From NCBI RefSeq assembly GCF_015645465.1, contig NZ_JADOEL010000001.1, positions 310,001-374,000 on the forward strand: a DNA stretch of 64,000 bases, read 5' to 3'. Made by a program: the position numbers and the translations under genes. This DNA is from Herminiimonas contaminans. GTDB lineage: Bacteria > Pseudomonadota > Gammaproteobacteria > Burkholderiales > Burkholderiaceae_D. Shown one piece after another: positions 5,838-48,603 of this stretch (the first letter of the stretch is position 1; every line of letters begins with the position of its first letter). The notes beneath the pieces are model-generated. The model saw only the letters and a program-made list of their open reading frames with translations. It searched no databases and was not told the DNA's origin.

Positions 5838-7433
5838 CTAAAAACCTAAAGCAATTCCCTCGCCTCGCGGATCTGCACCGCCTTCAAAGAACGGCGACCA
5901 CGGACCCGGCAAACGGATCGCTTGCGCCGTACCCATACGTGGGAATGGCCACTGTGCCGGTTCCACTGGATGACCTTGTTCACGCAATGCGTCAAAGGTT
6001 GCCTCCGGTGCTGCGGACTCCAGCAATAATTTGTTCGATGTATCGCCCCATGAGCGACCGTACAGCACGCGTGGCGCATCGATGGCTTCCTGCACGTTCA
6101 GACCGAAGTCGACCACGCGGGTTGCAACTGATGTTTGCGTCTGTGGCTGCACTTCGCCACCCTGGGTGCCGTACACCATGTAAGGCTTGCCGTCCTTGAA
6201 CAACATGCCCGACATCAGCGTCGATGCACTTTGTTTGCCTGGTTTGAGGACGTTCGGATGATCTGGTTGCAGCGAGAAGAACGCGCCACGGTTTTGCATC
6301 AACACGCCCGAACCTGGGTCAGTGACGCAGGAGCCGAAGTCGAAGTACAGGCTTTGCACCAGGCCAACCGCATTACCGTATTTGTCGGCGATGCTGATGA
6401 AGGTGGTGTCGCTGCCGCCCGGACGGTTTTCATGCGTACGTTTGGTATCTGCCAGCCACTCTGCGCGCTCGGCGTTAGCCAGTTCCGGATCGAGCAGTTT
6501 CTCGATAGGGATATCGGAGAACTCAGGATCGGTCAGGTACTTATCGCGCTTGTTGAAGGCCCATTTAATGGCCTGGATCATGGCGTTGTAGTACTCAGGC
6601 GAGTTCGAGTCCAGTCCTGACAGGTCGATACCGTTCAGGAAATTCAGGATCATCAACCCAGCGATACCTTGCGACGGTGGCGGTACCTGGAACGCCTGGA
6701 AGCCGCGATAGTTGGTCGAGATCGGTTTGACCCACTTCGCGTGATAGTTCTGGAAGTCTTCAACCGTCAACAAACCGCCCTGGCTCTTCAGGTAAGACAC
6801 GATCGATTGTGCGGTTTCTTCGTAGAAGTAACGCGGACCGTGTTGCGCGATGTTTTCCAGGGTCTTGGCCAATGCCGGTTGCTGCAGGCGTTCGCCAGGT
6901 TGGTAGGCGTTGCCGTTTTTCAGGAAGATGCCAGCCGAGCCAGGATCTTTGCGGAAGTCTTCGGTGTCATCGCTGATCCAGCGGCTGATATCCTGCGTGA
7001 CCGCCACGCCTTCGCTCGCATAGCGAATCGCCGGTGCCAGCAGGCGGCTCAGTGGCATGGTGCCGAAACGTTCGTGCGCCAGCGCCCAGCTATCGATCGC
7101 GCCAGGTACGGTGATCGCGGATTGCGGACCACGATTCGGGATCGCGTCCATACCGCGGTAGGTGTCCAGTGTGATGTCTTTACCGCAGGTGCCGCTGCCG
7201 TTCAGCGCGGACAGGGTGTTGGATTTGGCGTCGTGTATCATCCAGAATGCATCGCCGCCTATGCCTATCATGTGCGGCAAGACCACGCTCATGGTCGCGG
7301 CCGCGCAGATTGCTGCGTCTACTGCCGTACCGCCTTCCTTCAACACATCCAGTGCTGCGCCGGTCGCCAGATAGTGGGCGGTAGCGACCATGCCATGTTC
7401 GGCATAACTGACTGGGCGGGTGGTTCTCATCAT
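5838..7433 (-). CDS. Gamma-glutamyltransferase-like Ntn-hydrolase, cytoplasmic (GGT-2)
   Basis: 531 residues of the same family as the exported enzyme at 2014-3708, but without any signal sequence (MMRTTRPVSYAEHG), so it should act in the cytoplasm. The predicted autoprocessing Thr is Thr343 in SDTTFISIADKYGN, and the small-subunit sequence continues with GLVQSLYFDFGS and GSGV..QNRG. Two ATGs are adjacent (7433 and 7430) behind TTGGAGAA; the second has the better spacing. It is the first structural gene after a two-component system and lies 24 bp before the amidohydrolase, with which it is surely co-transcribed. It could hydrolyse a gamma-glutamylated intermediate or act as an acylase like related cephalosporin acylases; the substrate cannot be told from sequence. 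Confidence 0.86.
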   Translation of the reverse strand: MMRTTRPVSYAEHGMVATAHYLATGAALDVLKEGGTAVDAAICAAATMSVVLPHMIGIGGDAFWMIHDAKSNTLSALNGSGTCGKDITLDTYRGMDAIPNRGPQSAITVPGAIDSWALAHERFGTMPLSRLLAPAIRYASEGVAVTQDISRWISDDTEDFRKDPGSAGIFLKNGNAYQPGERLQQPALAKTLENIAQHGPRYFYEETAQSIVSYLKSQGGLLTVEDFQNYHAKWVKPISTNYRGFQAFQVPPPSQGIAGLMILNFLNGIDLSGLDSNSPEYYNAMIQAIKWAFNKRDKYLTDPEFSDIPIEKLLDPELANAERAEWLADTKRTHENRPGGSDTTFISIADKYGNAVGLVQSLYFDFGSCVTDPGSGVLMQNRGAFFSLQPDHPNVLKPGKQSASTLMSGMLFKDGKPYMVYGTQGGEVQPQTQTSVATRVVDFGLNVQEAIDAPRVLYGRSWGDTSNKLLLESAAPEATFDALREQGHPVEPAQWPFPRMGTAQAIRLPGPWSPFFEGGADPRGEGIALGF

Positions 7434-9263: not shown

Positions 9264-9284
9264 GAACTCATTTCACAAATATGA
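9264..9284. repeat. Solo end of the 270-bp inverted-repeat element
   Basis: GAACTCATTTCACAAATATGA here matches the left terminus of the structured element at 46049-46318 (GAACTCATTTCATAAATAT...) at 18 of the first 19 positions. No opposite terminus or internal hairpin is present in the 48-bp gap between the histidine kinase and patatin genes, so this looks like a truncated remnant or a separately dispersed terminus. Confidence 0.55.
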
Positions 9285-40134: not shown

Positions 40135-43100
40135 TTAATTCAGGGTCGCTGCCTTAGCCACGAAACCGGCGATCAACTCCAGCAAGGCATCTTCCTGATA
40201 CGGCTTACCGAGGTACTCATTTACACCCAGTTCCATCGCGTAGTTGCGATGCTTGCTGGCGGTGCGTGAGGTAATCATGATGATAGGAATATTACGTGTG
40301 CGTTCATCGTCACGTATATTGCGCGTCAAATCGAAACCGTCCATGCGCGGCATTTCGATATCGACCAGCATCACATCCGGCGTCACAGATTGCAAATGCT
40401 GCAAGGCATCGACACCATCTTTTGCCAGCACCACCTGATAGCCTTCACGTGTCAACAAACGTTGGGTGACACGACGCACGGTCAGGGAATCATCAACCAC
40501 CATCACGATAGATTGCGTACGCAAGCCTTGTACCGGTTCAGCGCCGCGCACATTCGAATCAGCCATCTCCGCGATCGCACCCATGCCATCAGGAGCATCC
40601 GATGGTGTCAGGCGCGGTGCACGAATATTGTCCAGCGCTGCGCGTTGTGCCAGTGGCACCGGATTCAGGATCAGCACGATCTCACCCGAACCCAACACTG
40701 TCGCACCGGCGATCCCTATCATGCGTGACAATTGCGGGCCTATGTTCTTGACCACCACCTCACGGTTGCCGAGGATTTCATCGACGTGCAAGGCGACGCG
40801 TTCATTGCCGCTCTTCAAAATCAGCAACGGTGAATACTGCTGCGTCACCGGCGCCACCTGCTGGTCGCCCAGCAAGCTGGACAGATAATGCATAGGCACG
40901 CGTTGCGACTGCCACATGACTGCGCCTTCGTTATACGCGGCGGCCAGCGGCCCCGTTTTCAATTGCTGCACTTGTTCGACCAGCACCGATGGCACTGCAT
41001 AAGTCTTGCCGCCAGTAGACAGCAACACCACTTGCGTAACGGCCAGTGTCAGTGGCAAATGGATGGTGAACTGTGCACCCTTGCCCGCTTCCGATGCAAT
41101 CGCAACGCGACCACCGAGCGAGGCGGCTTCCGAACGCACCACGTCCATACCAATGCCGCGACCAGCCAGCTCGGTGATTTCTTCTGCAGTGGAGAAGCCC
41201 GGATGGAAAATCAAATCGGTGACTTCGGCATCGGACAAATCCATATCGTTCGTCAGCAAACCACTGTTCAGTGCCTTGTTACGGATGTTATTCAGATTCA
41301 AACCCTGACCATCGTCAGAGAAATGGATCACAACTTCATTACCTTCCTGACGGATTTCTATGCGCAGCTCGCCGGTTTCATTCTTGCCTGCCGCCTGGCG
41401 TTGTTCGCGTGACTCGATACCGTGCACGATCGCATTCCGCAGCAAGTGCTCAAACGGACCGGCCATTTTTTCCAGCACGCCGCGGTCGATCTCGACCGCA
41501 CTACCGCGGATATCCAGGTTGATACGTTTGTCTGTTTCTTTGGCAGCCTGGCGCGTGACGCGGAACAGGCGCTCAGAGATGCTGGCAAACTGCACCATAC
41601 GCACACGCATCAAATCCTGCTGCAAATCGCGTGTCAAACGTGCCTGCGTAGACAAGTCAGTGGTGGCGCTATCGATGGTGCGACTCAGGTTCTGTTGCAC
41701 CGAACCGACGTCATTCACACTCTCCGCCATCATGCGTGTGAGTTCCTGCAAGCGCGTGAAGCGGTCGAACTCGAGCGGATCGAATTCACGGTCGGCCGAG
41801 ATACCCATGCGCGACGTAATCTGCGATTCCGCCTGCATTTCAATTTCGCGCAGTTGTTCACGCAAACGCACCACGTTTTCCGACAACTCGCCCATGGACT
41901 GCCGCAAGCTGCCAACCTCGTTTTCCAGCTTGGAACGCGAGATCGATACTTCACCCGCCTGATTGACCAGGCGATCCAGAATGTCGGCGCGCACCCGCAC
42001 CAAAGGCGCGGCAGTTGTCGCAGCCAGCGCAGCAGCATCCGGCACAATAGGTGCAAGACGATGCGGCGGTACCGGCATCGCGCTATGAATTTGTGGCAAC
42101 TCTGCTTTTGGCGTAACCGTCGTCGCTGCTGCGGCAGCTGGTGCTGCAGTTTTGCTTTGGCTTTGCAATTGCTCGAACAGATAGAGACCCTGGTCGTAGC
42201 GCGCCAGCAAATCTTCGAGGGCTGCATGCGATGGATGACCGGCATGCGTAATGTTTTCGATCCGGGTTTCCATCTCGTGCATATGCTGACCCAGCGACAT
42301 CGCACCAGCCATACGCGCACTGCCTTTAACCGTATGCAGCAAACGCGACAAGGATTGTGGCAACAAGGAATTACCCAGATCCTGTTGCCAGGCGCGCAGC
42401 GCCTGCCCCATCTGCGGCAGCATATCGCGGCCCTCTTCTATAAATACCGGCAACAAATCGGCATCGATTTCATCGCGGATCAGCAGCGCAGGATCATTTA
42501 ACTCTTCATCCAGCTGCGGATAAACCGGTTCGGCAAACGGCGCTGGTTGCTGACTATCGGCTTGTACTTGCGGCGCTGCTTCTGCAACTGGCGCGACAAA
42601 TACTTGCTCGTTAAGCTCAGGATAATCCGGCAATGGCGCGGCTGTTTCCGGCTCTGCATATTCTGTTTCATCAGGCGCAGCGAAGCCGTTACGCAAACCC
42701 GAACGCGCTTCGAAATCTTCCGGCATGCTTTGCAGAATAGCGACCTGATCCGGTTCTGCATCCGGCATTTCGCCGAGCGCAAACATTTGCAGCATGAAAC
42801 GTATGCGACCAACCGCATGCTCCAGCGCATCGTATTCAGAGATCAGCAATTTCACCGGTTTGCGTGCCAGGTATTGCAGCACTGTTTCCAGCGCATAGGC
42901 AATTTCCTGCAGCGGCTTGAAGCCGACGGTAGCGGAACTACCAGCCAGCGAATGCGCCGCGTGCACGACTTGGGTATTCACCTGGCGATCAGGTTCGTGC
43001 CGCCATTCACCTATATCTTGCGACAGGAAACGCACCAGCTCATCGGTTTCTGCCAGATAGATATTGTGCAGCGGCAGGCTGATTTCCAGATCGCCTATGT

Positions 43101-45960
43101 ACTTGATGTTGTCATCTGTTTTCAGCGGCGTAGGCTTGTTCGGGAAATCAATGACATCGGCTATCTGCAGATGATCAAATTCACCCGCTGCCTGCGTCTT
43201 CTTGGTTTCCGCCGCTATCGCTTCAGGTGCAGCATCGAATTGACGGAATTGCGCCAATTCTTCGTCACTTAATTCCAGTTCTTCCGCTTCCGTGACTGCA
43301 GGCGCTTCTTCCGTGTTGAACTCAAGTGCAGTATCTGCTTCTGCTACCTTGCCATCCTCAGCTTCGGCAACTACGTCTGCTACTGCAGGGGCAGCTTCAT
43401 GCGCGGCTTCCTCTGCAGTTTCGTAATAGAAGCCTGCATTATTTTTCACGCGTTCCGCTGCATTGATCAGTGCCAGACCCTGACGATCAGAGCGGCCTTG
43501 TGTCAGCAAATCCTGAACCCAGGCATCCAGTTCCTGTGTCGCCCGATCCAGCAAAGCATACAAATCAGGATCGCCACCACGAGTTTCAGACAAGCGCAGA
43601 TTCAAGACTTGCTCCACACTCCATGCGGTTTCGCCGAAAGCCAGCAAACCGACCATACGGCCACTGCCTTTGAGTGTATGGAAGGACCGACGCAGCGTGG
43701 TCAGGTATTCCTGGTTATGCGGTGCATTGCGCGATTCCGGCATGGTTTGCCTGACGCAATCCAGCACTTCGACCGCTTCCGACAAAAAGATTTCGAGCAA
43801 TTCTGCATCGATCGCCTCATCGCTGACTGGCGTCGCACGCGGTACTTCTTCATCGACTTGCGCGACTGTCTTGACCGGTGCCGCGGCGGCCAGTGCGACG
43901 TCTTCCATCGCATCCTGCGAAGCCACGAAAGCCGGATGCTCCAGCATATCGATCACGGCACGCGCCCTGTCATTGGCTTCCGGATTGTCGACCAGCGTCG
44001 CATCCAGGCGCACCTGTTCCAGCGATTCGCGCAGCTGCTCCTGCAACAAGGAGTTATCAGGCTCGGCCAGCAAGGACATCGCCAGTTCTTCCGATTGCTT
44101 CTGGTGGTAAGCGAGTTCAGCCTCAACCGTAGGCAAATCAGGTGCATCGAACGCACGATCTGCTGGCACCGGTGTGCCTTCGTCCGGTATCGGCATCAGC
44201 GCAACATCCAGCGCACTCTCATCCGGCTGATTCTTTTCCGTCAGGCGGGCATGGAACACGCCCAGCTTTTGATCAAAGGAAAAGCGATTCTTCACACCGT
44301 CCGGATGCAGTTGCAAAGTCTCGATAAAGAAACTCAGCGCACCGACGTTTTGCGCGACCTGCTCAAATTCCTGTACATAAGGCTCGTCTTCCGCTTCGAT
44401 GAAGCGACGTACTGCCGCTTGCGTATGCTGGACTGCCAGCACTGCATCATCCTGCTCCAGTACGGCCAGTGCACCGCTGATCTGATGCAGTATGGTGTCG
44501 ATATCAGCCAGACCGCTACGTTGCGTCGTGTCGCGGAAGTATTCGTCAAGCAGTTTCTCTACCTGACGCAAACTGGATTGCATTTCTGTCGCCAGCGCCC
44601 CCATGGTCTGGCGCTCTTGCGCTTCACGCGACATGTCATCCAGCCACGATGCCGATACACTCAGTTGCTCGCCCGCTACTGCCGACAACAAACGTGCAGT
44701 CAATGCATCAGCACGTTCGGCGAAGTCTTCAGACAAGTGGCCGATTTGCTGCAGGGCGTTTTCCACAAACAGCAGGCTGGTCGCGATTTCCAGGCTCAGG
44801 TTATCGCCCGGCTGGGTATGCGCCGCATGACGGGCAATGCCGCCCAGCTCACGCAACAACTTGGCCAGCGCTGGTGCATTCAGACGTGCGCCAGCTTCTG
44901 CCAGGCCGCCCATTTCTTTTTCAAAAGCCGTGGCAACACTGGCATCGCCGCTTGCGATGCGATTCCAGAAATTCTTGGCTTGCATCAGGCGCTCTTTCGC
45001 CTGTGTCAACGCCTGTGCATCAATCTGGCCGTAACGCTTCTTCTCATAATCAGGCGGGACCACGCCGTCGAGCTGATAAGCGGCGCGGATTTGCTGTACC
45101 ACCGGCGATGGTTGCTCAACTTTCGCGATGAAGAACAAGGCATCACGCAACAATCTTTCCGTGATGCTGGATGAACCCTCACTCAGACGGCGCATCTGCA
45201 GATTGATACGTGCAAACAATTGTTTGACGTAGAGTTCGTTCGGTACTTGTCCGCCTGCGACCGCTTCGGCAAAGCCTCGCATGACCCACCAGAAGCTGCG
45301 TCCCTGCTGCGTATTCTGTGCCTGCTCGACACGCAGGACGATGTCGCGCATCGCCTGCGCACTGGCGATGGCCGAACCATCAGGCGCATTCTTCAGGAAC
45401 ATCAACAGGCCGCGCTCAAAGCGTTTGCGCAGCGCTACATAATCATCGTGCGACAGCTTGACACTGGCTGATGGCAGCTGTGGTCGTATCGCCAGGTTGG
45501 GGAAAAACAGATCGGCTGGATGAATGCGTTCCGCACCGCGTACTTGCAACAATGCGCGGTAGTATGGGAATAAGCGCACCGGCTGGTGCGGCACACCTGC
45601 CAACAACTCTTCCAGGTACTCGAGCAAAGCCTGGTAAGCATGCGTGATCGCATGCACGCAGCCTTCATCCAGCTGCAACTGACCGGACTCTACGCGATCG
45701 AGCAAATCTTCTACTGTTTCGGTAATGATGACGACGCCATCAACATCCACCATTTGCAAAGCACCATGTGCCTGATGCAAATATGCCTTGGCATGACGCA
45801 AGGTGGTCGAGCTGGTTTCGGCATCTTGCATCAATGCTTCGCCCAGCGCGATTTTTGAACGCGTCAGCGCTCCGCTGATTTCACCGATCACCCATGACAA
45901 GGGGCCGGTATCGAAGTGTGCCCCGCTGCCTTGCGACAATGGGGAGGTAGGGGTATTCAT
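40135..45960 (-). CDS. chpA: Hybrid chemosensory histidine kinase ChpA/PilL (CheA with several Hpt domains and a receiver)
   Basis: 1941 residues, smaller than the about 2,470 of Pseudomonas ChpA but the same plan. Hpt-like phosphotransfer sites are seen at about residue 61 (AYLHQAHGALQMV), 759 (FHTLKGSGRMVG), 1002 (AHSLAGSSATVG) and 1207 (LHTVKGSARMAG). A CheA dimerisation region and HATPase follow (HLLRNAIVHGIES near 1507; DDGQGLNL; GRGIGMDVV), then a CheW-like domain at about 1640-1780, and a C-terminal receiver with Asp in MLVDIEMPRMDG near 1863. It should transduce surface or mechanical signals from PilJ to PilG/PilH to control type IV pilus twitching. It is separated from pilJ by 360 bp that contain an inverted-repeat element. 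Confidence 0.95.
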   Translation of the reverse strand: MNTPTSPLSQGSGAHFDTGPLSWVIGEISGALTRSKIALGEALMQDAETSSTTLRHAKAYLHQAHGALQMVDVDGVVIITETVEDLLDRVESGQLQLDEGCVHAITHAYQALLEYLEELLAGVPHQPVRLFPYYRALLQVRGAERIHPADLFFPNLAIRPQLPSASVKLSHDDYVALRKRFERGLLMFLKNAPDGSAIASAQAMRDIVLRVEQAQNTQQGRSFWWVMRGFAEAVAGGQVPNELYVKQLFARINLQMRRLSEGSSSITERLLRDALFFIAKVEQPSPVVQQIRAAYQLDGVVPPDYEKKRYGQIDAQALTQAKERLMQAKNFWNRIASGDASVATAFEKEMGGLAEAGARLNAPALAKLLRELGGIARHAAHTQPGDNLSLEIATSLLFVENALQQIGHLSEDFAERADALTARLLSAVAGEQLSVSASWLDDMSREAQERQTMGALATEMQSSLRQVEKLLDEYFRDTTQRSGLADIDTILHQISGALAVLEQDDAVLAVQHTQAAVRRFIEAEDEPYVQEFEQVAQNVGALSFFIETLQLHPDGVKNRFSFDQKLGVFHARLTEKNQPDESALDVALMPIPDEGTPVPADRAFDAPDLPTVEAELAYHQKQSEELAMSLLAEPDNSLLQEQLRESLEQVRLDATLVDNPEANDRARAVIDMLEHPAFVASQDAMEDVALAAAAPVKTVAQVDEEVPRATPVSDEAIDAELLEIFLSEAVEVLDCVRQTMPESRNAPHNQEYLTTLRRSFHTLKGSGRMVGLLAFGETAWSVEQVLNLRLSETRGGDPDLYALLDRATQELDAWVQDLLTQGRSDRQGLALINAAERVKNNAGFYYETAEEAAHEAAPAVADVVAEAEDGKVAEADTALEFNTEEAPAVTEAEELELSDEELAQFRQFDAAPEAIAAETKKTQAAGEFDHLQIADVIDFPNKPTPLKTDDNIKYIGDLEISLPLHNIYLAETDELVRFLSQDIGEWRHEPDRQVNTQVVHAAHSLAGSSATVGFKPLQEIAYALETVLQYLARKPVKLLISEYDALEHAVGRIRFMLQMFALGEMPDAEPDQVAILQSMPEDFEARSGLRNGFAAPDETEYAEPETAAPLPDYPELNEQVFVAPVAEAAPQVQADSQQPAPFAEPVYPQLDEELNDPALLIRDEIDADLLPVFIEEGRDMLPQMGQALRAWQQDLGNSLLPQSLSRLLHTVKGSARMAGAMSLGQHMHEMETRIENITHAGHPSHAALEDLLARYDQGLYLFEQLQSQSKTAAPAAAAATTVTPKAELPQIHSAMPVPPHRLAPIVPDAAALAATTAAPLVRVRADILDRLVNQAGEVSISRSKLENEVGSLRQSMGELSENVVRLREQLREIEMQAESQITSRMGISADREFDPLEFDRFTRLQELTRMMAESVNDVGSVQQNLSRTIDSATTDLSTQARLTRDLQQDLMRVRMVQFASISERLFRVTRQAAKETDKRINLDIRGSAVEIDRGVLEKMAGPFEHLLRNAIVHGIESREQRQAAGKNETGELRIEIRQEGNEVVIHFSDDGQGLNLNNIRNKALNSGLLTNDMDLSDAEVTDLIFHPGFSTAEEITELAGRGIGMDVVRSEAASLGGRVAIASEAGKGAQFTIHLPLTLAVTQVVLLSTGGKTYAVPSVLVEQVQQLKTGPLAAAYNEGAVMWQSQRVPMHYLSSLLGDQQVAPVTQQYSPLLILKSGNERVALHVDEILGNREVVVKNIGPQLSRMIGIAGATVLGSGEIVLILNPVPLAQRAALDNIRAPRLTPSDAPDGMGAIAEMADSNVRGAEPVQGLRTQSIVMVVDDSLTVRRVTQRLLTREGYQVVLAKDGVDALQHLQSVTPDVMLVDIEMPRMDGFDLTRNIRDDERTRNIPIIMITSRTASKHRNYAMELGVNEYLGKPYQEDALLELIAGFVAKAATLN

Positions 45961-46320
45961 GACTGCCTCGCGGTGCGTAGGTGATCAACCTATATTGGTC
46001 GATCACCGCAATTGCTATTGGGTCTAAGCCACTGCAAGCCTGCAATAGTTAGAACTCATTTCATAAATATCCGCGAGTGCGAACGCGGCTATTTGGGAGG
46101 TAGTGCAAGGCGTGTCGCGCAGCCAAGGGTGGTCCCTTGGCAAGCGGCGCAACGCAGCAATACGCCCAAATAGCCCGTTCCCTCCGGGTTCTTACCAAAA
46201 GCGGCGCTGGCCGCGTTGTGCTCCTTGCGCATAGGCCACTATGCGACGCGTCGCACGCCTTGCCAGCACCGCTTTTGGTAAGAACGCATCTCACGGATAT
46301 TGGTGAAATGAGTTCTAATA
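45961..46320. other. Gap between pilJ and chpA, mostly filled by a structured repeat element
   Basis: All but about 90 bases of this 360-bp gap belong to the inverted-repeat element described at 46049-46318. The remaining part before chpA holds no gene. An ATG frame across the element on the minus strand (46061-46324) has no ribosome-binding site or family resemblance. Confidence 0.6.
46049..46318. mobile_element. 270-bp non-autonomous inverted-repeat element (MITE/BIME-like)
   Basis: The ends are imperfect terminal inverted repeats of about 27 bp, both reading TTAGAACTCATTTCA then two variable bases and AATATCCG. Inside are two long hairpins. Hairpin 1 (46087-46175) pairs GGCTATTTGGG with CCCAAATAGCC and has an inner perfect CCAAGGG/CCCTTGG. 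Hairpin 2 (46189-46284) pairs TTCTTACCAAAAGCGG with CCGCTTTTGGTAAGAA and has an inner CGCATAG/CTATGCG. The right end lies two bases from the pilJ stop codon. No transposase is encoded. A partial terminus of the same sequence is at 9264-9284. Family membership and copy number are not determinable from one window. Confidence 0.75.
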
Positions 46321-48603
46321 TCAAGCGGTGACGCGGAAGCGTGATACCGAGTTCTTCAATTCTTCGGCCAGTTTCGACAATTCGCGAATCGAATGCGCCG
46401 TCTGCTGCGTACCTTCTTGCGTTTGCTCGGTAACCGTCAAAATGCCCTGGATGTTTTGCGCCACGCCGTTCGCCGATGTTGCCTGCTGTTCGGTCGCAGA
46501 TGAAATACCCTGAATCAGTTCCGCCAGTCGGTTCGACACGCGGCGGATGTCGGACAGCGCAGCACCGGCCGCATCTGACAGCTTGGCCCCCTCGACCACA
46601 CCCTGTGTAGATTTTTCCATCGCCGCTACCGCATCATGGGTATCGGTTTGAATCGTACGTACCAGTGCACCGATCTGCTTGGTCGCTTCACCTGAGCGTT
46701 CCGCCAGTCGTTGCACCTCTTCCGCCACCACCGAGAAGCCGCGACCGGCCTCACCGGCAGACGCCGCCTGGATCGCCGCATTCAGCGCCAGTACGTTGGT
46801 CTGCTCGGTAATGTCGGAAATCAGTTCAGTGATCTCACCAATCTCTTGCGACGATTCACCGAGTCGCTTGATTCGTTTCGAGGTTTCCTGGATTTGTTCG
46901 CGAATCTCGTTCATGCCCTTGATCGCATTTTCCACCGCACGTGAACCTTCTTCCGCTGCCGTCACGGACTGACGTGCAACTTCGGCTGATTCATTGGCTG
47001 ATTTGGAAACGTCGGTAATTTGTACCGCCATATCCAATACCGCCTGGCCGGTTTCTTGAATATCGCGCGATTGCTTTTGCGACGCTTCCAGCAATTCGGT
47101 CGAGATGTTCTGCGCTTGTGTCGAGGCCGAGGTAACCTGTTCCGCTGTATTCGTGACACGCCCTACCAGGCCGCGCAACTCTTCCACCGTGTAGTTAACC
47201 GAGTCGGCAATCGCGCCGGTAATGTCTTCCGAGACCGTCGCCTGCACCGTCAAGTCACCATCCGCCACTTCCTGCAATTCGTTCATCAGACGCAAAATCG
47301 CCGCCTGGTTTTGATCGTTCGCTTGTTTCGCTTCTTCTTCCTGTTTCTGCGCTTCGAGACGTTGGCCCTCAGCTTCGAGACGACGTGCATCCGCTTCCTT
47401 GGTACGGTTACGGCTGTCCTGCAGCAGTACCAGTGCAATACCTGCAGCAGACAACAGTGCCGCCAGCACGCTCAAGAGCATTAACCAGAATGGCACTGTC
47501 AGCGAATCCTGCTCGTTGCGATAGCTTTGTTGCAGTTCGGTCAGGCGTTGTTTCAGCGCTTCGTTTTCTTTAAAGATCAATTCCTCGGCTTGTTTTGCCG
47601 AGATGAAGTTTTGCAGATTACCGAGAATCAGCGAAATCGATTTTTGGTATTCATTGAAGTTGGCCTGCAATTCCAGCAGCTTGTCGCGGGTATCAGGCTC
47701 CGTGGTTTTGCTCAGGCGCAAAGCTTCGCTACCGTTCAGGAAACCGTCGACGATTTCGCGGAAGGTGTTCGTATCTTTACCCAGCAAGAAGGCTGTTTCC
47801 GGGTTCACACCTTCGGACGTCAGGAATTCGTTCGCGCTACGTGCCAGACGCTGTGTCAGCATGACCAGTTGGCCAGCCTGCGCTGTTTCGCGCGGAGAAG
47901 CACCGCCCTGTGCTTTCAGGGTCGAGATTTGTTCGGTCAGCTCCAGCAAGTTAGGTGAGATACCGTTCAGGATCTGCAATGTGCTACCGAAACCAGTCAA
48001 TTCTTTTTCCAGCTTCAGAATTGTTCCGGCAGCCTTGTCGGTACCGGTCCACAGCTTTTGTGTTTCTTTCAGCATCGCATCCATCTGTGCGTCCGGCGGG
48101 CTGATGCTGCGCCCCTGGTACACACCACCCTTGGACAGAATGGCCAGGTCGTTATTGAATTCTTTACGACTGTCAGCAAGTTGCTGGAACGCTTCCTTGT
48201 TACCCTGAATCGCATTCGGCGTCGCCTTACCCACACGCTGCGAGTGCATCAGTGCATCACCGGCGATCTGGGTCTGGGTCGAACTCAAAGCAGAGGAATC
48301 GGCACTCAGCCAGACGAACAAGGCACCAGCCACCAGCGAACCGCCAAGTGCGATCAGCAAAATACGAACCTGTTGTTGCAGTGGCAGCTTGCCGATCAGT
48401 GGCAGCGTGATGTCGCCACTTTTCTGCAATACGTCGCCGATGTAGGTCGCGTTCGGATTGATGTTGGCACGTGTAATCGTGTTTGGCGCAGCAGGAGACT
48501 CTGCGTGTGTACCCCCCTCAGTTGGCGCAGCATTATTGGCATCATTGCCTTGCGCAGCCGTCTCTTTTTTATTTTGGGAAAAGAGCGGTAATTTAAACGC
48601 CAT
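46321..48603 (-). CDS. pilJ: Methyl-accepting chemotaxis protein of the type IV pilus system
   Basis: 760 residues. An unusual cytoplasmic N-terminal extension of about 75 residues (rich in Asn, Ala, Thr) precedes TM1 at about 80-99. A periplasmic PilJ-type sensor follows to TM2 at about 370-393, then a coiled, Gln/Glu/Ala-rich linker and HAMP-like segment, and an MCP signalling domain with the tip around [41 protein letters not shown] precedes the ATG. It follows pilI by 53 bp and should couple to ChpA through PilI. Confidence 0.95.

Follow-up and report, generated by a model that had tools for sequence, protein, structure and literature searches.

The highly structured element lying just downstream of the pilJ stop codon is a mobile insertion and not a local regulator. 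Very probably it is a MITE that depends for its movement on an IS5-family transposase (IS5_3 type) supplied in trans, with the ends, the TA insertion and the core described below. Its interior is shown to consist of two inverted hairpin halves that are kept complementary by changes on both sides. The same core architecture recurs with quite different terminal repeats across proteobacteria, which is unusual.

The element at the pilJ-chpA junction and its copies

The whole stretch of DNA analysed (the window) is 64,000 nucleotides long and comes from Herminiimonas contaminans. Features of the element and of its neighbours are collected in Table 1. The initial annotation had placed a doubly hairpinned element at 46049-46318, and its terminal arms and hairpin arms were indeed present. 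The terminal arms (46049-46077 and 46290-46318; 29 nt) are 90% complementary and those of hairpin A (46188-46211 and 46262-46285; 24 nt) are 96% complementary. The insertion itself is shorter than those outer bounds, the extra bases corresponding to the two TAs and to one chance-complementary base per side. The distance of two bases to the pilJ stop holds for the outer bounds and becomes three when counted from the TA. Both hairpins are nested inside the stem made by the terminal repeats, but they stand side by side and not within each other. The layout is therefore a terminal stem, hairpin B, a small hinge and hairpin A, that is, a three-way junction (Y). The terminal inverted repeats are kept among 22 diverse copies of the window type. 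As had also been proposed, no transposase is encoded: for the sole ORF of at least 80 aa over the element (87 aa), neither NCBIfam nor Pfam gave a family match with E <= 1e-3.

Table 1. Positions of the element, its parts and its neighbours in the window, and loci of the short derivatives
Feature	Position	Strand	Remarks
Whole element (MITE), 264 bp	46052..46315		No functional orientation, roughly two-fold symmetric; 40 copies are 264-268 bp
TA target duplication, left copy	46050..46051
TA target duplication, right copy	46316..46317
Left terminal inverted repeat	46052..46077	+	Outer ~18-20 bp common to an IS5-family insertion sequence
Right terminal inverted repeat	46290..46315	-
Hairpin B, first core half	46081..46180	+	Half-element model R1 match 46075-46188, + strand, 111.3 bits
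Hinge joining the halves	46181..46187		Within CCC-TCC-GGG (46180-46188)
Hairpin A, second core half, other strand	46188..46285	-	R1 match 46180-46291, - strand, 107.5 bits
pilJ, upstream neighbour	46321..48603	-	Stop codon 46321-46323, 3 nt from TA; PF13675 and MCP signal domain (Pfam)
chpA-like gene, downstream neighbour	40135..45960	-	Hpt, HATPase, CheW and receiver domains (Pfam); ORF start 91 bp beyond the element
34-bp short elements, same breakpoint			Loci L009, L010, L011, L013, L016, L102, L106, L107, L111

Seven full copies are present in the genome of origin (G000). They occur in both orientations, and identity to the window copy is 96-97% for the six others. All 13 genomes of the genus matched the end of pilJ and the start of chpA; the element was found between them in none of the 12 others, which rules out a regulatory element conserved locally. 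Thus, what had been named as evidence against insertion, a single copy conserved in place, is the reverse of what was observed, and the element stands as an inserted one. On sequence comparison, the insertion after pilJ appears recent on the scale of the genus. At the pilJ site, several bases close to the junction differ in the empty sites of G011 (Herminiimonas KBW02) and G002, so that the clean target duplication comes from another copy. In G011, the site orthologous to this second copy aligned without gap over 242 bases (91.3% identity) with the flanks of the copy joined by a single TA. This second copy was also missing from G002, with other local differences.

Forty full copies, distinguished by their flanks, were compared. 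TA was present on both sides in 29 of them, while a perfect TA was missing on one or both sides in 11. The target is YTAR-like: among the TA-flanked copies, the base before TA was C or T in 24/29 and the base after was A or G in 28/29. Of 245 genomes examined from the family, 52 contained the end pattern, and the reversed control pattern was found 0 times in every genome listed. Hosts of the window element include Herminiimonas, Collimonas, Undibacterium and others; a search of plasmids gave no match to it. A crude ORF analysis was performed on 20 Herminiimonas copies, which represent 19 sites because L007 and L094 share one. In eleven, the site was not spanned by any called ORF of 100 aa or more. 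Four (3 sites) had inserted at a TA belonging to the stop codon of a neighbouring gene; since the element starts with G, TA plus G restores the stop codon. Five were at 18-69 nt from a called ORF start, the true start being unsure. In Collimonas, two versions of about 420 bp (L095 6231-6656 and L100 2515-2938) carry an extra insert in hairpin A. A lone end-like sequence with 1 mismatch to the end pattern occurs at window positions 9264-9283, with no partner end nearby.

Insertion sequences sharing the ends of the element

A search for an insertion sequence with the same ends, suggested by the initial annotation, identified a likely parent of the IS5 family. In G069, an IS5-family transposase lies between one pair of ends 859 bp apart. 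It is split over two frames, the first with PF13340 and the second with PF01609, and both parts exceed the cut-off of NF033580 (IS5_3), which we take to be 'IS427-like'. Altogether, 15 copies of insertion sequences with these ends (852-855 bp) were found in 4 genomes (G069, G037, G035, G014) of 3 genera, 12 of the copies being in a single genome. They share with the element the ~20-bp terminal repeats, the TA duplication, with TA on both sides in 14/15 copies, and the YTAR-like target. A variant, GAAATGGGTTC, is common to elements of G037 and G069 and to the right end of the G037 insertion sequence. Other loci from the transposase search had one such end, or none. At L212 in G037, an end pair with the spacing of a full-length element and two copies of the insertion sequence lie within ~2.5 kb.

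Unlike the element, the insertion sequence encodes a transposase. The core model gave no match at E <= 1 in 13/13 insertion-sequence loci, namely 11 with window-type ends and one each from G133 and G238, L210-L213 being left out because elements are nearby. The element is therefore not a simple deletion of its presumed driver. Using the first part of the transposase (121 aa) as the query with a cut-off of E <= 1e-25, relatives were detected in 10 of the 195 genomes searched from the family, G037 by itself having 12 copies, and no match was obtained in 13/13 genomes of the genus. To judge from these searches, the IS5-family insertion sequence of three other genera of the family is the likely source of the enzyme. 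The absence of such a match in the genus suggests that the copies there may now be stranded; if IS5_3 moved the element, the source of its movement in Herminiimonas may be historical.

The MITE reading is borne out by a short element without transposase gene, with terminal inverted repeats, dispersed in both orientations, flanked by TA with target duplication and empty sites, and by a complete insertion sequence with the same ends. In the proposed mechanism, an IS5_3 transposase, as the putative mover, would recognise the ~20-bp ends GAACTCATTTCATAAATA, insert the element at the TA inside a YTAR-like site and duplicate this TA.

For one end type, shared ends thus show the driver. For TAGGGCCTGTTAAC-type ends, no autonomous partner emerged, as the places listed in 7 genomes include no pair of ends spaced 0.7-1.5 kb apart. 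NF033580 matched 6 of 12 genomes with other end types (4 above the cut-off); it also matched 7 of 14 control genomes, so that the presence of IS5_3 alone says little. Examination of 11 loci from genomes with other end types revealed clear ends in two insertion sequences only. One, in G133 (831 bp), resembles the ends of that genome's element and suggests a driver for a second type; the other, in G238 (884 bp, two overlapping loci), has only partial resemblance to its element. By the IS5_3 match and these 11 loci, no driver was found for the remaining end types, several of which presumably are IS630-like. At L176 1440-1475, the left end of the G069 insertion sequence holds, just inside the GAACTC end, a second end-like sequence, GGGTCTGTTAAC, similar to the ends found on a different type of element, and no such sequence is present at the right end. 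A trace of end replacement is a possible explanation.

The two-half core across the phylum

In the alignment of window-type elements (A1, 22 diverse copies), 51 of the 102 predicted pairs had changed on both sides, as compared to 26.6 in shuffled alignments. Cells were paired at 96.5% (85.0 shuffled) and the covariation was 0.331 (0.112 shuffled); slid structures gave at most 0.065.

Matches to the element were obtained in 25 of 148 relatives, several covering part of the core only. Such loci contained nine whole elements, 267-279 bp long and differing in their ends, plus some one-hairpin remnants. In every whole element, two halves in inverted orientation flank CCC-NNN-GGG and are themselves bounded by the terminal repeats, the half being a hairpin of ~113 nt. 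A half-element model, R1, was built from 38 halves. In an even draw of 274 genomes from the class it matched 94 (E <= 1e-3), and in a draw of 398 genomes from the phylum it matched 94 (E <= 1e-5). Outside the loci that were read, these tallies depend on score only; the E-values are rough, the filters strict, and the two draws overlap. On the 64-kb window, R1 found the two halves and one chance-level match at E 5.5. A crude search for ends in 30 class-scan loci gave lengths of 265-287 bp in 18 and no ends in 12, of which 6 are cut by contig ends. In G162, several R1 matches lie within 130 bases of contig starts, for which reason the element probably breaks assemblies.

The model was then confronted with 29 loci outside it. 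The class scan supplied 23 of them, named plasmids 3 and the phylum scan another 3, of which L233 sits in a genome that supplied a training member. From the class scan, the window's own locus (L118) and loci near contig ends (L129, L133, L137, L140, L142 and L147) had been dropped. Because the 26 scan loci were picked on the finding of one half by R1, the test bears on the other half. Both halves, on the plus then on the minus strand with starts ~105 bases apart, were found in 28 of the 29 loci, the exception being L130.

An alignment of 57 halves from 28 loci (A3) was made, leaving out L232, a close relative of the window type. Pairing was 93.2% (57.8 shuffled) and covariation 0.840 (0.186 shuffled, at most 0.130 slid), values biased towards R1, which both selected the rows of A3 and served to fit the alignment. 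Fresh structure prediction from A3 gave a nearly identical result. Of the five measures, double-changed pairs showed no excess (30 as compared to 29.3 shuffled) and pair types a weak one (reached by 11/500 shuffles). Mean pairwise identity of the A3 halves is 0.50, their length is 111-116 nt in 53/57, and the CCC/GGG pairs are retained in 57/57. An imperfectly paired motif, GCAAGGCG ... GCAACGC, is conserved across the phylum.

The sequence outside the halves was analysed in 29 elements of 28 loci, without L130. It was self-complementary above the 95% point of mixed pairs in 28 elements and exceeded the maximum of mixed pairs in 21/29. The terminal repeats themselves differ widely between elements (GAACTCATTTCAT-like, GGGCCTGTTAACA, GTGCAGCAACC, GGGAAGCGTTGAG and others) and often follow TA. 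Named carriers of the core family are Herminiimonas, Collimonas, Undibacterium and a Sterolibacterium MAG, together with plasmids of Pseudomonas aeruginosa, Azotobacter chroococcum and Halomonas. The plasmid search returned 4 records for the L131 element, none covering 80% of the query, and 4 for the L235 element including its own; the L076 and L136 elements gave no match there. The L235 element was not found in phages.

MITE interiors are usually taken as decayed filler between the ends read by the transposase. In the present family, conservation reaches further for the interior than for the ends: the terminal repeats change from one proteobacterial family to another, but the core keeps its length, symmetry, hinge and motif. 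We tentatively propose, as a possibility falling somewhat short of an even chance, that the Y-shaped core is the evolving unit. It would define a family of DNA parasites spread over the phylum, which retain one two-fold-symmetric double hairpin and swap terminal repeats to use different transposases. The core would be selected at the DNA level, as single-stranded hairpins or cruciforms bound by a common host factor, and would aid propagation independently of the transposase. Already in the main MITE reading, the conserved imperfectly paired motif would be a protein site acting in propagation or tolerance of the element. If the wider conservation of the interior holds, it becomes testable whether bacterial MITEs carry sequence acting in their own propagation and whether DNA folding matters. 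R1 also provides a means to annotate a widespread repeat family.

Folding, pairing and comparison with known repeats

RNA folding of 46040-46330 gave -169 kcal/mol as compared to a shuffled mean of -100.0 (z -14.8; 0/200 shuffles as good). The other strand folded as single-stranded DNA gave z -12.2, and the read-through RNA across the element forms a strong predicted double hairpin (z -13.7). There is no T-run after the outer stem. A scan for intrinsic terminators returned two weak terminator-like sites with 5-bp stems (0.6 expected), and no sigma-70-like promoter site was present in the 601 bp scanned.

Selection acting on one strand's transcript should leave more G.U than A.C among imperfect cells, because G.U remains a pair in RNA. 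G.T and A.C were equal (35 and 35) when the terminal and outer stems of A1 were counted together with the A3 outer stem; the A1 apical stems had 4 and 6. The absence of a G.T excess over A.C in the outer stems points to complementarity kept there at the DNA level, in single-stranded-DNA hairpins or cruciforms, and not in RNA. The inner motif departs from this rule. In the A1 motif helices, read on the B-first strand, G.T outnumbered A.C by 34 to 1 in hairpin B and 13 to 0 in hairpin A, a pattern that looks as expected of an RNA of that strand. In A3, with each half read on its own strand, the corresponding counts were 21 to 5 in the motif, 34 to 3 at the junction and 21 to 0 in the apical stem, where 18 of the G.T cells fall in one pair. 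Equal G.T and A.C in the outer stems would also follow from selection on the RNAs of both strands.

Short derivatives bear on the same question. Nine 34-bp elements with one common breakpoint were read in Herminiimonas and Collimonas (Table 1), five of them TA-flanked on both sides. Their end fits the loss, from a full copy, of the stretch between two GTTCT repeats. Very short units moving by means of an inner look-alike end are possible, and the GTTCT deletion explains them equally well. Breakpoints at TATTTG and TCAC were seen in L008 and L104, respectively. L116 holds a 56-bp derivative (6527-6582) with two B ends head to head, which suggests template switching. Deletion scars are expected when a palindrome folds during replication, and these scars thus fit folding at the DNA level. 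One short element is common to G000 (33 bp) and G011 (34 bp); G002 does not have it, one TA remaining there with a different left flank.

These data have to be weighed against other readings of the structure. An attenuator or RNase III site of the pil operon, setting chpA relative to pilJ, would agree with the position between two co-directional genes and with the folded read-through RNA. Occupation of the site in one genome out of 13 in the genus, six other full copies elsewhere in this genome and the lack of a G.U preference in the outer stems make such a role highly improbable. Most likely, the insertion past the pilJ stop is tolerated and probably incidental, doing nothing specific there. 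Any effect on chpA would arise through the large hairpin in the read-through mRNA, which could be cleaved by RNase III by analogy with what has been proposed, in the portion of the review available, for Neisseria elements (Delihas 2007, PMC2229807). A wider action as RNA, either as a small RNA or as an RNase III substrate with RNA pairing under selection, draws on the very stable fold, the strong covariation, the excess of G.T on the B-first strand in both motif helices of the window type and, as far as the same review is available, the NEMIS precedent (PMC2229807). The 35 to 35 balance of the outer stems, the lack of an Rfam family at the window copy and the lack of a sigma-70-like site in the scanned 601 bp argue against it, and we consider it rather improbable.

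The complementarity of the stems could instead be unselected, template switching between the arms correcting them in an otherwise passive MITE. G.T and A.C are then expected to be equally rare in the outer stems, as is the case, and the breakage of short derivatives at repeats of 4-6 bp suggests that the palindrome misbehaves in replication. However, the imperfectly paired motif persists uncorrected across the phylum, the half keeps its length and its CCC/GGG pairs, and the same core is found with unrelated ends; we regard this reading as somewhat unlikely. Convergence on hairpins, by which elements with different ends would not form one family, might be argued from the low identity of the A3 halves. 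It is very unlikely in view of E-values down to 4e-17 (L234), the conserved motif and near-fixed length, the second half in the same inverted place in 28 of the 29 loci outside the model, and the single chance-level match in the rest of the window. The MITE with a two-half core is the reading that we retain in the comparisons below.

Several known repeats can be set beside the element. ERIC/RU-1, the 127-bp enterobacterial element, is ruled out by the length of 264-268 bp. REP sequences and REPINs are single palindromes of 20-40 bp without target duplication, associated with a RAYT transposase, and identity with them is ruled out by the long terminal repeats and the TA duplication. A known Rfam RNA is likewise ruled out, as the covariance-model scan of 45500-46900 returned only MIR918, below threshold (20.1 bits as compared to 268 needed, E 0.74). 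No name for the repeat family was found in Rfam, using the window copy, or in the part of the literature searched. RUP of Streptococcus pneumoniae (107 bp, IS630 type) is, in the available part of its description, also transposase-less, with a TA target, IS-like ends and presumed action in trans (Delihas 2007, PMC2229807). It resembles the element in these ends shared with an insertion sequence, and that part mentions no double-hairpin core. Correia/NEMIS elements of Neisseria (~107/155 bp, with an IHF site and a hairpin fold) are described there as giving a read-through RNA proposed as an RNase III substrate (PMC2229807). Both they and the element are small, with terminal repeats and hairpins, but the element has 264 bp and its relatives 265-287 bp where measured; the length of 40 copies and the hosts Herminiimonas, Collimonas, Undibacterium and others rule out identity. 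MITEPsy1 of Pseudomonas syringae (100 bp), according to the accessible part of its report, has ends like those of an IS5-family insertion sequence, duplicates 4 nt at CTAG or YTAA and was seen to transpose in a trap assay (PMC3189936). Both are MITEs with IS5-family-like ends, but the terminal repeats of MITEPsy1 are unlike those of the element and no Y core is mentioned in that part. Caulobacter CIR repeats (~110 bp), as far as that review is available, have two long hairpin arms and a linker, with GANTC in or at the loop (PMC2229807). They recall the two linked arms of the element and are described as unlike elements with a stem joining the 5' and 3' ends. Judged by the available description only, the Pseudomonas fluorescens repeats R200 (320 bp) and R6 (177 bp) could be relatives (PMC2718517).

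A separate hairpin lies at 45980-46007, just upstream of chpA (GGTGATC... / ...GATCACC), with an 11-bp stem including one G.U in the minus-strand RNA. It is retained in G011 and G002 despite changes between its arms and is possibly a native intergenic signal.
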